Shown here: piece after piece, positions 53,702 through 56,733 of the stretch
How positions within the stretch are numbered: position 1 is the stretch's first letter
Layout of the letters: every line of letters starts with the position of its first letter
From: Rhodospira trueperi
GTDB lineage: Bacteria > Pseudomonadota > Alphaproteobacteria > Rhodospirillales > Rhodospirillaceae
DNA length: 64,000 bases
NCBI RefSeq assembly: GCF_900101965.1
Contig: NZ_FNAP01000008.1
Span: forward strand, 1 to 64,000
Direction of reading: 5' to 3'
Notes under the pieces: generated by a model
Seen by the model: only the letters and a program-made list of their open reading frames with translations
What the model was told of the DNA's origin: nothing
Database searches by the model: none
Position numbers and translations under genes: made by a program

Positions 53702-54571
53702 TTACCGCGTGCCGTCGGTTGACCAGGGGAGACTTTCGTAGAAAGTCCGGACAGCTTCATAGGCGACATCAAAGGGCGGCAGAGGCTCTTCGATTTCCAT
53801 GGCGATGTCGTCGTACTGTTGGGCGGATCGGGCGCGGATTTCCGGGTCGGCTATGTCACTCGGCTTGGGGTCAAGGCTCCGTGAGCGGGCCTTGTCGACC
53901 AGCACCCTGAGGATGTCGGCGCGGGTGCGCGCGTCGAAGCGTTCGGGTGCGGTGCGCAACAGGAAATGGATGTCGTAGATATCCTGGCGGCGGGTCCGGT
54001 CGCGCGCCTCGCTTTTCTGCTGCAAGGTGGCGCGGAGCTTCTCCGAGACCAGATCGACCAGTCCGTAGGTCCTTAGGTGGTCGTGTTCGTCGAGGGTGTA
54101 GATATCCTCTGTGCCGATCACCTCGTTGAGGCTGTGGTCGACGTGGATGACGGTGGTGGCCTGTCCGGCGCCGAGCCGGCGCATTTCCCTGACGTTGCCC
54201 CGGCGGGCGTAGCCGACGCTGGCCCGAATGGTCGGGTGTGTTCGATCCGCCCCGGGCGGTTGCTGTTTGCAGGTCCGGACGGCGCACAGGATCGGATAGC
54301 CAAGGCTGTCGCTGGTGCGCCTGAGGGCGGCGTCGAGGTCGGTTCGAAATCGGTCCAGGTCGAAGGCCGAAAGGCGCTGTCGGGTCGAGAAGTCGATATC
54401 CTTCGTGTAGCGCGAACTGCCGAACGCCAACGCCATGAGCATCCCGCCCTTGAGGGCCATCGTCGTCCGCAGGGACTCGGTGCCCGCGATGGCGGTCAGG
54501 ACGATATGGACAGCTTGTCGAAAGGTCGTTCGCCCGGGGTCGGCCGTGACCCACGCGTCAATGGGGATCAT
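53702..54571 (-). CDS. AbiEii-family nucleotidyltransferase toxin
   Basis: The 289-residue protein belongs to the AbiEii/AbiGii toxins (MenT-like nucleotidyltransferases). Motif I, LKGGMLMALAFG-SRYTKDIDFS (residues 40-62), carries the G-S/DxD core (Asp58, Asp60), and DLVSEKLRATLQQKSEARDRTRRQDIYD matches the family's later catalytic stretch. It should block growth by modifying tRNA or another target until neutralised. It lies six bases after the antitoxin gene. Confidence 0.9.
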   Translation of the reverse strand: MIPIDAWVTADPGRTTFRQAVHIVLTAIAGTESLRTTMALKGGMLMALAFGSSRYTKDIDFSTRQRLSAFDLDRFRTDLDAALRRTSDSLGYPILCAVRTCKQQPPGADRTHPTIRASVGYARRGNVREMRRLGAGQATTVIHVDHSLNEVIGTEDIYTLDEHDHLRTYGLVDLVSEKLRATLQQKSEARDRTRRQDIYDIHFLLRTAPERFDARTRADILRVLVDKARSRSLDPKPSDIADPEIRARSAQQYDDIAMEIEEPLPPFDVAYEAVRTFYESLPWSTDGTR

Positions 54572-54577
54572 GGCGGC

Positions 54578-55480
54578 TCACCCCTCGACATTGATGGACA
54601 GGCACCAGCGTTCGGAGTAGCGCGGCGCGTAGTCGGCGGTCGGGTCCAGTCTGCGGGACCCACCGCGCTGGACGTCTGTCAGCCAGCGGTCGAAGGCCGG
54701 ATGCGACAGCCCCAGCCGCTCCTCCAGGATATATCCCGCCCGCACGCGGTCGATCTTGCGGCCGTGGGTATCGAATTCCGCCACGATCAGGTCCAGATTG
54801 TCGGCGGCGCGGTTCTCGAAAATGTCGAGCACATGATAAATGCCGCCGCACAGATCGGGGGCGCGCAGCATGTCGAGAAACGTCCGGCCCAACGTGGCCA
54901 CGCGCAGGGGCGTTCCCTTGACCGTGATGTAGGCCCCCAGGTGGGCACTGGCGTGCCTGTGGACCGTGGTGCGGCGAATGCGGGTGAACCGATAGCGCTT
55001 CAGGGTGGGCAGGCCGGCTTGGAGGTAGTCGACGAGTCGGTCCTCGCCGATATCGCGACGCATGCGGTTCTTGGCGTGGCGCGCCCACTCGGCCGGAGGC
55101 GGCGAGGAGAGGAACAGGATCTTGGGAAGGCGGTCGGTCAGGCCGTGCCACTCCATCGCGCTCAGATGCGAGACATAGGCGAAGGGATCAATGCAGCAGG
55201 CGATGTCGGCTTCTGAAGCGTGTTCGCGGCTGAGGGTCCGATAGACGTTGACGTTGTCCACGAGTTTGCCGGTTTCGAGAACGCCGGCGTCCTCCAGGTT
55301 GGTCATGGTGGTGTCGAAGCTGGAAATATCGGCGTTCTTTTTCTGAAGGCGCTCAATGGTCTCGCCTCTATACGCCTTGTCGCGATATAATTGGTCGATC
55401 AAACAACCCAGATCGTAACGGTTCATGACCGGTTTCATTTGGTCGGCAATGGCAAGGGTCATCGCCTTCTGAAGAAACAT
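54578..55480 (-). CDS. AbiEi-family antitoxin and transcriptional repressor
   Basis: The 300-residue protein has a winged-helix N-terminal domain (about 1-80, ISSFDTTMTNLEDAGVL) and the AbiEi C-terminal domain (about 90-300). ATG 55480 follows AAGGAG. Known AbiEi proteins repress abiE by binding inverted repeats at its promoter and neutralise the toxin without direct contact (type IV). Here two large palindromes lie just upstream. Confidence 0.88.
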   Translation of the reverse strand: MFLQKAMTLAIADQMKPVMNRYDLGCLIDQLYRDKAYRGETIERLQKKNADISSFDTTMTNLEDAGVLETGKLVDNVNVYRTLSREHASEADIACCIDPFAYVSHLSAMEWHGLTDRLPKILFLSSPPPAEWARHAKNRMRRDIGEDRLVDYLQAGLPTLKRYRFTRIRRTTVHRHASAHLGAYITVKGTPLRVATLGRTFLDMLRAPDLCGGIYHVLDIFENRAADNLDLIVAEFDTHGRKIDRVRAGYILEERLGLSHPAFDRWLTDVQRGGSRRLDPTADYAPRYSERWCLSINVEG

Positions 55481-55491
55481 CGTCGGCTCCT

Positions 55492-55532
55492 TAGCCATAG
55501 GCATCCGTCCTAAGGACGGATGCCTATGGCTA
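55492..55532. repeat. 41-base perfect palindrome adjacent to abiEi
   Basis: Arms of 20 bases (55492-55511 and 55513-55532) are perfectly complementary around one base. The centre reads GTCCT-A-AGGAC. It begins 11 bases upstream of the abiEi start and covers its ribosome binding site region. Confidence 0.95.
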
Positions 55533-55597
55533 TCACGGAACGAAGGCGTTGGCAAGGTTGGTGTGCATGGGAGCGAATTGACTTGACAAGGCGGCAG

Positions 55598-55642
55598 GCT
55601 CGGCAGAACAATACGTCCTTAGGACGTATTGTTCTGCCGAGC
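55598..55642. repeat. 45-base perfect palindrome in the abiE leader
   Basis: Arms of 22 bases (55598-55619 and 55621-55642) pair perfectly around one base. The centre GTCCT-T-AGGAC equals that of the other palindrome, although the outer arms differ. It lies 65 bases from the first and just before the divergent Asp-box gene. Confidence 0.95.
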
Positions 55643-55654
55643 GAGGGGTCGTGC

Positions 55655-56572
55655 GTGCCGGTAGCTTTTCTTGAAACATGGATCGCTTCTGACCGCCGGC
55701 CGTGTGGCGCGGTCTCACGGTGTCGATCAAGCCTGACGCGCAGCACCCTGGCGGCCATCGCGATACTGGCCTGGGCTGGGGCCGGTGTCCTGGCGGCCGG
55801 CACGGTGGCGCGCGCTGCGCCGTGCGAGCCACTGCCGGACGCCTTTGATTACGCCGCCTATGATGCGCAGATCCGGCTGGACCTGACCAGGATGGTTTCG
55901 CTGCCCCCACGGACAGTGGTTGTCACGGGGTCCTATCGTGATGCCGCCAACACGGTTCATCCGGCGCTGCTGACCTCCACGGACGGCGGCGAGACGTGGT
56001 CGCGGGTGCCCGTGCGGATCCACGGCGCCGCGATCGGCCGCCTTGAGTCGGATGCGGCGGCCTCGGTCTGGGGGATCGTCAGCTTCAGGCAGGAAGGTTT
56101 GGGCACGCCCTTGGCCCTGCTGCGGACCCGCGATGGGGCAGGGTCCTGGTGCCTGGTGTCGCTTGAGGGGCTCGACACGCTGAACGGCGTCGACCTGTTC
56201 CGCATGTACGACGACCGCCATGGTCTGATCGTCTTCTCGGAGGAGCCGTTCGGCGGCGGCTTTCGCGCCTATCAGACCCGTGATGGCGGCGAAAGCTGGC
56301 ACGCCCTGTGGCGCGCGGACGGGCCGCCGCCGGACCAGATTGATACCGCCGCCGACGATCCCGACCGCGCCGCTGCGGACCCGCCCCATGCGACGCTTTG
56401 GCGGCGGGATTCGGACATGCTCGCCGCGAGCGCCGTCCTTCGCCTTCGCCGCGACGACGGCGGGTACGCGGTCGAACGCTACGATATCCTTGGCGACGGG
56501 GTCTGGCGCTTGCTCTCACGGATCCCGCCGACATACCGGGTGGATGACGGCGGGCTGATCCCGATCCCGTAG
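55655..56572 (+). CDS. exported protein with Asp-box (BNR-like) repeats
   Basis: From GTG 55655 (six bases after GAGGGG) the product has 305 residues: a basic start, a signal or anchor at about 28-50 ending AGTVARA, then repeated Asp-box motifs STDGGETW, TRDGAGSW and TRDGGESW, typical of BNR/sialidase-like and Ycf48-like propellers. Family is not determined. A frame open further upstream crosses both palindromes and is not used. It is divergent from the AbiE pair. Confidence 0.7.
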   Translation: MPVAFLETWIASDRRPCGAVSRCRSSLTRSTLAAIAILAWAGAGVLAAGTVARAAPCEPLPDAFDYAAYDAQIRLDLTRMVSLPPRTVVVTGSYRDAANTVHPALLTSTDGGETWSRVPVRIHGAAIGRLESDAAASVWGIVSFRQEGLGTPLALLRTRDGAGSWCLVSLEGLDTLNGVDLFRMYDDRHGLIVFSEEPFGGGFRAYQTRDGGESWHALWRADGPPPDQIDTAADDPDRAAADPPHATLWRRDSDMLAASAVLRLRRDDGGYAVERYDILGDGVWRLLSRIPPTYRVDDGGLIPIP

Positions 56573-56733
56573 GGTCGTGACAGGTACTCCACACGATCAA
56601 GGTCGGGCAGGGTCGGGAAATTTGCGCCATCGCAATGCGCGGGGCGGGGCCGGTATCCCACACTGTGGTCAACCATCGGGGAGCGGAGCCGGGTACCCAT
56701 CGCGGTTCACGCCCCCCTGATCAGAACCTTTGT

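Follow-up and report, generated by a model that had tools for sequence, protein, structure and literature searches.

Two long palindromes in front of a putative abiE operon in Rhodospira trueperi raise the question of what they are for and of what keeps their arms perfect. Within the window, that is the whole stretch of 64,000 nucleotides that was analysed, the pair noticed in the preliminary description was confirmed from the sequence: a palindrome of 41 nt with 20-bp arms around a single A, and another of 45 nt with 22-bp arms around a single T, lying 65 nt apart and built on a common centre (Table 1). We posit that they are two operators of the antitoxin AbiEi belonging to divergent promoters, and that the symmetry of their arms is upheld by template switching. 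To this reading, which derives from sequence comparison, we assign a probability of about 0.64.

Table 1. Position of the features of the abiE locus in the window.
Feature	Position	Strand	Remarks
Palindrome 1	55492..55532	.	Putative proximal operator; centre base 55512; same-genus locus L002 has the identical arm plus one pair
Palindrome 2	55598..55642	.	Putative distal operator; centre base 55620; in the L002 counterpart the arms differ and the centre is the same
Spacer	55533..55597	.	65 nt; location of a weak -35-like TTGCCA facing abiE and of the divergent promoter's -35 box
Divergent promoter-like TTGACA-18-AACAAT	55583..55612	+	Reads away from abiE; predicted start near the centre of palindrome 2
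abiEi	54578..55480	-	Start ATG at 55480; predicted antitoxin, likely repressor; PADLOC AbiEi E 1.2e-108
abiEii	53702..54571	-	Predicted nucleotidyltransferase-type toxin; Pfam AbiEii E 1.4e-28; PADLOC AbiEii E 3.7e-100
Divergent gene	55520 to 56572 (longest open frame)	+	Preceded by palindrome 2

Both genes of an AbiE type IV toxin-antitoxin system were found, with abiEii directly downstream of abiEi. The abiEii product scored 100.8 bits against Pfam AbiEii (cut-off 22.5) and the abiEi product 20.1 bits against AbiEi_1, slightly under the cut-off of 22.2. The predicted structure of AbiEi (mean pLDDT 91.3) had the solved AbiEi 6y8q and Rv2827c (1zel) as top-ranked matches, at modest fold similarity (TM by query length 0.40 and 0.51, respectively); a sequence search against PDB chains found none. 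Palindrome 1 lies directly upstream of abiEi, and a Shine-Dalgarno-like AAGGAG (55492-55487) abuts its end. The longest open frame of the divergent gene begins within palindrome 1, so that its true start is uncertain. Its earlier assignment as an Asp-box gene is plausible from matches to the Ycf48-like and F510_1955 families, which were the only ones and far below cut-off, while neither Pfam nor PADLOC gave a match. According to the annotated plasmid records, the genes divergent from abiE vary among loci, and on a Nitrosococcus plasmid (L012, 936-1898) they include a TIR-domain gene. In the same-genus locus L138, the ~990 bp that carry the Ycf48-like gene and adjoin palindrome 2 in the window (55633-56621) are missing, and abiE adjoins the same leuB-like gene as in the window.

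Within their inner 19 nt (ATCCGTCCTAAGGACGGAT in palindrome 1 and ATACGTCCTTAGGACGTAT in palindrome 2) the palindromes are alike except for one arm pair and the centre base; farther out, their arms are unrelated. The window contains two copies of the core GTCCTNAGGAC, against a shuffle mean of 0.06, and none lies outside the two palindromes in the whole genome (4,209,928 bases in 50 contigs). Copies scattered through the genome without abiE would have spoken against operators, and the operator idea thus passed this check. In the remaining window the longest perfect arm was 11, mononucleotide shuffles (n = 20) reached at most 12, and the chance expectation for arms of at least 20 in the window is 5.5e-7. 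A terminator reading was rejected, as a scan of the window for intrinsic terminators, which have a GC-rich stem and then a T run, listed neither palindrome among the terminator-like sites. The search for known RNA families returned two mir-55 matches only, far below the gathering score, which were dismissed as hairpin artefacts.

The palindromes are not peculiar to this genome. In a same-genus relative with an 83% identical AbiEi, both palindromes recur and share the centre of those in the window, while the distal arms differ; in a same-order relative (AbiEi 38% identical) the twin palindromes and their centre recur with all four arms differing from the window. The order (10 of its 317 genomes), plasmids (154 matching records, from which 15 loci were taken) and a genome collection (best 80 of 222 relatives) supplied the AbiEi loci; flanks were obtained for 26 of the 154 matching plasmid records or near copies. 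After removal of five duplicates (L026, L027, L036, L052, L080) and exclusion of two weak partial AbiEi matches without such palindromes (L004, L010), 95 of 98 distinct loci carried one to three perfect odd palindromes with the centre TCCTNAGGA upstream of abiEi, as the preliminary description had proposed to check in relatives. One palindrome was found in 29 loci, two in 63 and three in 3, giving 164 in total, of which 155 have arms of 18-25 bp and 134 have A or T as the centre base. The arm lengths of the two palindromes in one locus correlate (r 0.53). Judging by record titles, the matches listed come from Alpha-, Beta-, Gamma- and delta-type Proteobacteria, Verrucomicrobia, Cyanobacteria, Nitrospira and Omnitrophota, although many records are metagenome bins, so single taxon names may be wrong. 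The three palindrome-free loci are L048, L061 and L103, the latter two having only 15 and 90 upstream bases, respectively. L048, which shares 85% DNA identity with L043, has kept a TTGACT box and is missing both palindromes, either by true loss or by assembly collapse.

A search that began with the DNA pattern gave the same association. A degenerate form of the core was present in 6 of 385 and 3 of 398 genomes; the class and phylum draws overlap, and 8 distinct genomes were matched. Long palindrome pairs occur in six of them, next to the same AbiEi in five and at the end of a contig in one; the remaining two have arms of 8-9 bp only and no AbiEi in the stretch examined. Other perfect inverted repeats (arms of at least 14, loop of at most 8) numbered 18 in 558,630 bases of the same loci, and three of these (L038, L074, L105) are the same palindrome type carrying a mismatch. 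As a control, seven loci of the AbiEi family PF09407 from 5 of 115 genomes were inspected; none has a TCCTNAGGA palindrome with arms of at least 9, and L131 has an imperfect 23-bp repeat with 19 of 23 positions matched. In another control locus, L135, two perfect 14-bp palindromes (2189-2216 and 2238-2265) share the centre TATAGTATATATACTATA and have unlike outer arms; this may be an equivalent arrangement built on a different core. Two scans of viral contigs for AbiEi gave no relative, and a limited literature search returned no report of these abiE palindromes.

The anatomy of the palindromes points to a protein-binding site overlapping a promoter. Arm positions 1-4 each hold 2 bits of information and position 5 holds 1.65; the value falls to 0.02-0.04 at positions 16-18 and rises slightly (0.12-0.17) at positions 19-21 and 23, so good conservation is confined to the inner ~10 bp per half. 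For the within-locus arm and promoter-layout counts, as for the mismatch counts below, L013 and L078 were removed besides the five duplicates. In 65 two-palindrome loci, the distal and proximal arms of one locus are more alike than in shuffled loci at positions 6, 7 and 10-16, with no such sharing at positions 8, 9 and 17-20; this is most simply explained by one reader that recognises the inner part of both. The palindrome ends are sharp (pairing immediately outside, 0.314). On the spacer side, 30-40 nt away from the palindrome centre, there is often a TTGACA-like box, which is directed towards abiE at 67 of 93 proximal or single sites and outward at 33 of 65 distal ones, compared with 9/65 and 9/93 on the non-spacer sides. 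The TATAAT-like hexamer then sits within the arm, and the predicted start is at most 5 nt from the palindrome centre. The divergent promoter of the window agrees with the consensus at 10 of 12 positions, and shuffled sequences gave 0.4 sites on average. In the abiE direction, a consensus promoter scan of the window listed no promoter; a weak TTGCCA-17-TAGCCA, with TTGCCA at 55555-55550 on the minus strand, is present, and both of its hexamers are retained in L002. An inverted repeat over the predicted abiE promoter is thus found at most of the sites, and in the window this promoter is weak.

Studied AbiEi proteins are described as binding 23-bp inverted repeats over the promoter and repressing their own operon (PMC3985639, PMC7319586). 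In Streptococcus agalactiae, AbiEi is reported to bind an inverted repeat over the abiE operon promoter, leading to autorepression, and the present palindromes resemble this operator in their position over the abiE promoter, its arms being up to 23 bp long (PMC3985639). As described there, however, S. agalactiae has one repeat pair that is perfect in the outer 11 bp only and shows 4 mismatches over 23 bp, with a gap of 3 bp, whereas the window has two perfect palindromes with a conserved centre, free outer arms and a divergent promoter (PMC3985639). The Rv2827c promoter of Mycobacterium tuberculosis, with two pairs of 23-bp inverted repeats and the AbiEi-type antitoxin gene downstream, likewise has two inverted-repeat elements, but these are described as having a shared consensus, 13-bp gaps within pairs and 4 bp between pairs, and the description consulted mentions neither perfect repeats nor covariation of the arms (PMC7319586). 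Streptococcus suis AbiEi is reported to bind two palindromes in its own promoter (PMC11062541). The abiE-linked conservation, the promoter boxes at fixed distance and the arms close in length to the 23-bp AbiEi repeats support the earlier operator reading; from arm length, position and promoter overlap, the palindromes are likely operators, one per divergent promoter.

The outer arms pose a puzzle of their own: hardly any of their sequence is conserved, and still they remain complementary. Of the near-palindromes (at least 13 of 18 pairs, at most two core mismatches, thresholds by which strongly decayed palindromes would be missed), 158/166 are perfect over 18 pairs, and mismatches occupy 12 of 2988 pair cells. 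In 20 close locus pairs, a hand-chosen sample in which some loci were used repeatedly, outer arm pairs from position 11 on differed at 89/398, or 0.22 per pair, compared with 630/2422 four-fold sites (0.26) and 272/918 spacer sites (0.30). Both arms thus change together, at a pace close to that of weakly constrained DNA; the paired-change rate is 0.70-0.83 of neutral (Jukes-Cantor-corrected, versus spacer and four-fold sites). Transitions made up 44 of 100 paired changes and 113 of 272 spacer changes (p = 0.72); judged from these alignments, the paired-change spectrum matches that of the spacer, unlike change via G-U intermediates. A separate comparison restricted to perfect arms gave 176 changes, which are paired by construction. 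Unpaired single arm changes were seen in two young alleles of enterobacterial plasmids (L117 and L118), and in L112, which is 89% identical, the L117 change is found in each arm. The preliminary description had taken perfect arms as a sign of selection or recent origin; so stated, this is probably wrong, as the feature is widespread and its outer arms change in pairs near-neutrally. In a side observation, L108 differs from L106 and L107 by a 38-nt deletion that removed the distal palindrome and left the flanks in place.

The centre base changed in 11 of 26 comparisons (14 close pairs, not all independent), namely by 8 complement swaps and 3 transitions, and 258 of 10,535 downstream sites differ in the same close pairs. 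A wider set of 35 centre comparisons comprised 17 without change, 9 complements, 7 transitions and 2 others. Complement swaps therefore amount to 8/11 changes in the close set and 9/18 in the wider one, although inversion of a 1-base spacer is indistinguishable from an A-T transversion and the preference for A or T at the centre could inflate these counts. Among near-identical enterobacterial plasmids, either palindrome has centre A or T; since palindromes assemble poorly, individual centre bases may have been miscalled in draft genomes, though these plasmids were deposited as complete. Arm homogenisation and spacer inversion are the described footprint of template switching (PMC8604942), whose part in shaping inverted repeats is also treated in PMC8794818 and whose quasipalindrome hot spots are treated in PMC7202029. 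Like the repeats described there, the abiE palindromes have homogenised arms with changes on both of them and stems that stay perfect over evolution, and their centre swaps are an ambiguous counterpart of the spacer inversion (PMC8604942, PMC8794818, PMC7202029). The described cases concern yeast coding genes, RNA genes and an E. coli lacZ reporter (PMC8604942, PMC8794818, PMC7202029), whereas here template switching would shape an operator, and in many lineages.

Taken together, free yet perfect outer arms and paired near-neutral change make template switching the best explanation. We propose two back-to-back promoters with their -35 boxes in the spacer and their -10 boxes inside the palindrome arms, from which transcription would begin near each palindrome centre, one towards abiEi-abiEii and the other away. 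AbiEi may bind each palindrome with about one protein per 20-25-bp arm, recognising chiefly the inner ~10-16 bp per half, and would thereby shut both promoters. At the replication fork the palindrome would fold and DNA polymerase switch template between arms or strands, so that a new one-arm mutation would be copied to the other arm or erased, the arms staying complementary, and the central base would occasionally be inverted. If copying and erasing were equally probable for each arm mutation, the paired rate would equal the single-site rate, and 0.70-0.83 of it was seen. The uniform arm length and the within-locus length correlation are unexplained by template switching alone; the former suggests that a length constraint remains, perhaps the AbiEi footprint.

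Alternatively, arm pairing itself could be selected, the operator being an extruded cruciform or hairpin read by AbiEi or another factor, with repression depending on supercoiling or fork state and selection purging or compensating mismatches. Near-perfect complementarity without conserved sequence, the sharp ends, the similar arm lengths within a locus and the strong predicted DNA hairpins (-23 and -26.2 kcal/mol for the two palindromes) agree with this, and it retains some probability because weak selection in very large populations can also yield paired change at a near-neutral rate. On the other hand, the observed paired changes are close to neutral in rate and spectrum, unpaired alleles occur in sequenced plasmids, and complement swaps at the centre require copying and not selection for pairing; spectrum and swaps would argue against cruciform selection as the main cause, which we consider unlikely. 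Less likely still is that the AbiEi operators of this clade are DNA-structure switches, in which the antitoxin would read the hairpin or cruciform once extruded, the core forming its tip and the arms being free in sequence; if true, phage infection and other events that alter supercoiling or the state of the fork would relieve repression of the toxin operon. An RNA role, also raised earlier, would have the abiEi leader fold into a translation-blocking stem in transcripts that come in from outside, and centre-started transcripts lack this stem. It fits the palindrome abutting the abiEi ribosome site and the starts predicted at the palindrome centre. Those same central starts, together with the lack of a transition excess among paired changes, make a hairpin role less likely; moreover, G-T types are not in excess among the arm mismatches (3/12 in one strand sense, 3/12 in the other) and the distal palindrome is left unexplained, so we regard it as quite improbable.

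An insertion target had been suggested as well, and the palindromes could delimit a mobile unit that carries abiE or serve as its targets. In 10 of 26 pairs the main homology block stops within ~25 nt of the outer palindrome edge, and the segment absent from L138 adjoins palindrome 2, but such edges are also expected from a unit inherited or transferred whole. Homology extends far past the palindromes in L050/L052, L106/L107 and L013/L076, and the genome holds no further core copy; the suggestion thus found no support, and we judge a mobile unit very improbable. No clean empty insertion site was found in the same genus (G001, G003, G004), leuB and the rhomboid-like gene being far apart on one contig in G003 and on separate contigs in G001 and G004. 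Dispersed repeats unrelated to abiE have a negligible probability, and nothing was found in their favour. REP- or MITE-type elements would have many genomic copies; the two core copies refute this reading for the present genome, and the long palindromes found by DNA pattern sit beside AbiEi or at a contig end, so it was rejected.

If template switching is indeed responsible, the palindromes would be regulatory elements of wide occurrence that owe most of their symmetry to errors of replication, and perfect symmetry need not imply selection. The loci would then offer many natural replicates for estimating template-switch rates and for distinguishing one-step from two-step paired changes in stems. 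The known AbiEi operators would likewise be extended by a twin layout with divergent promoters.

Some loci depart from the common pattern. The longest arms seen, 32-34 bp, belong to single palindromes of Pseudanabaena (L044, L049, L055), and L071, L087 and L098 have triple palindromes upstream of abiEi instead of two. On a Xanthomonas plasmid (L116, 806-1716), abiEi is annotated in separate pieces, and both palindromes are perfect over 19-20 bp.
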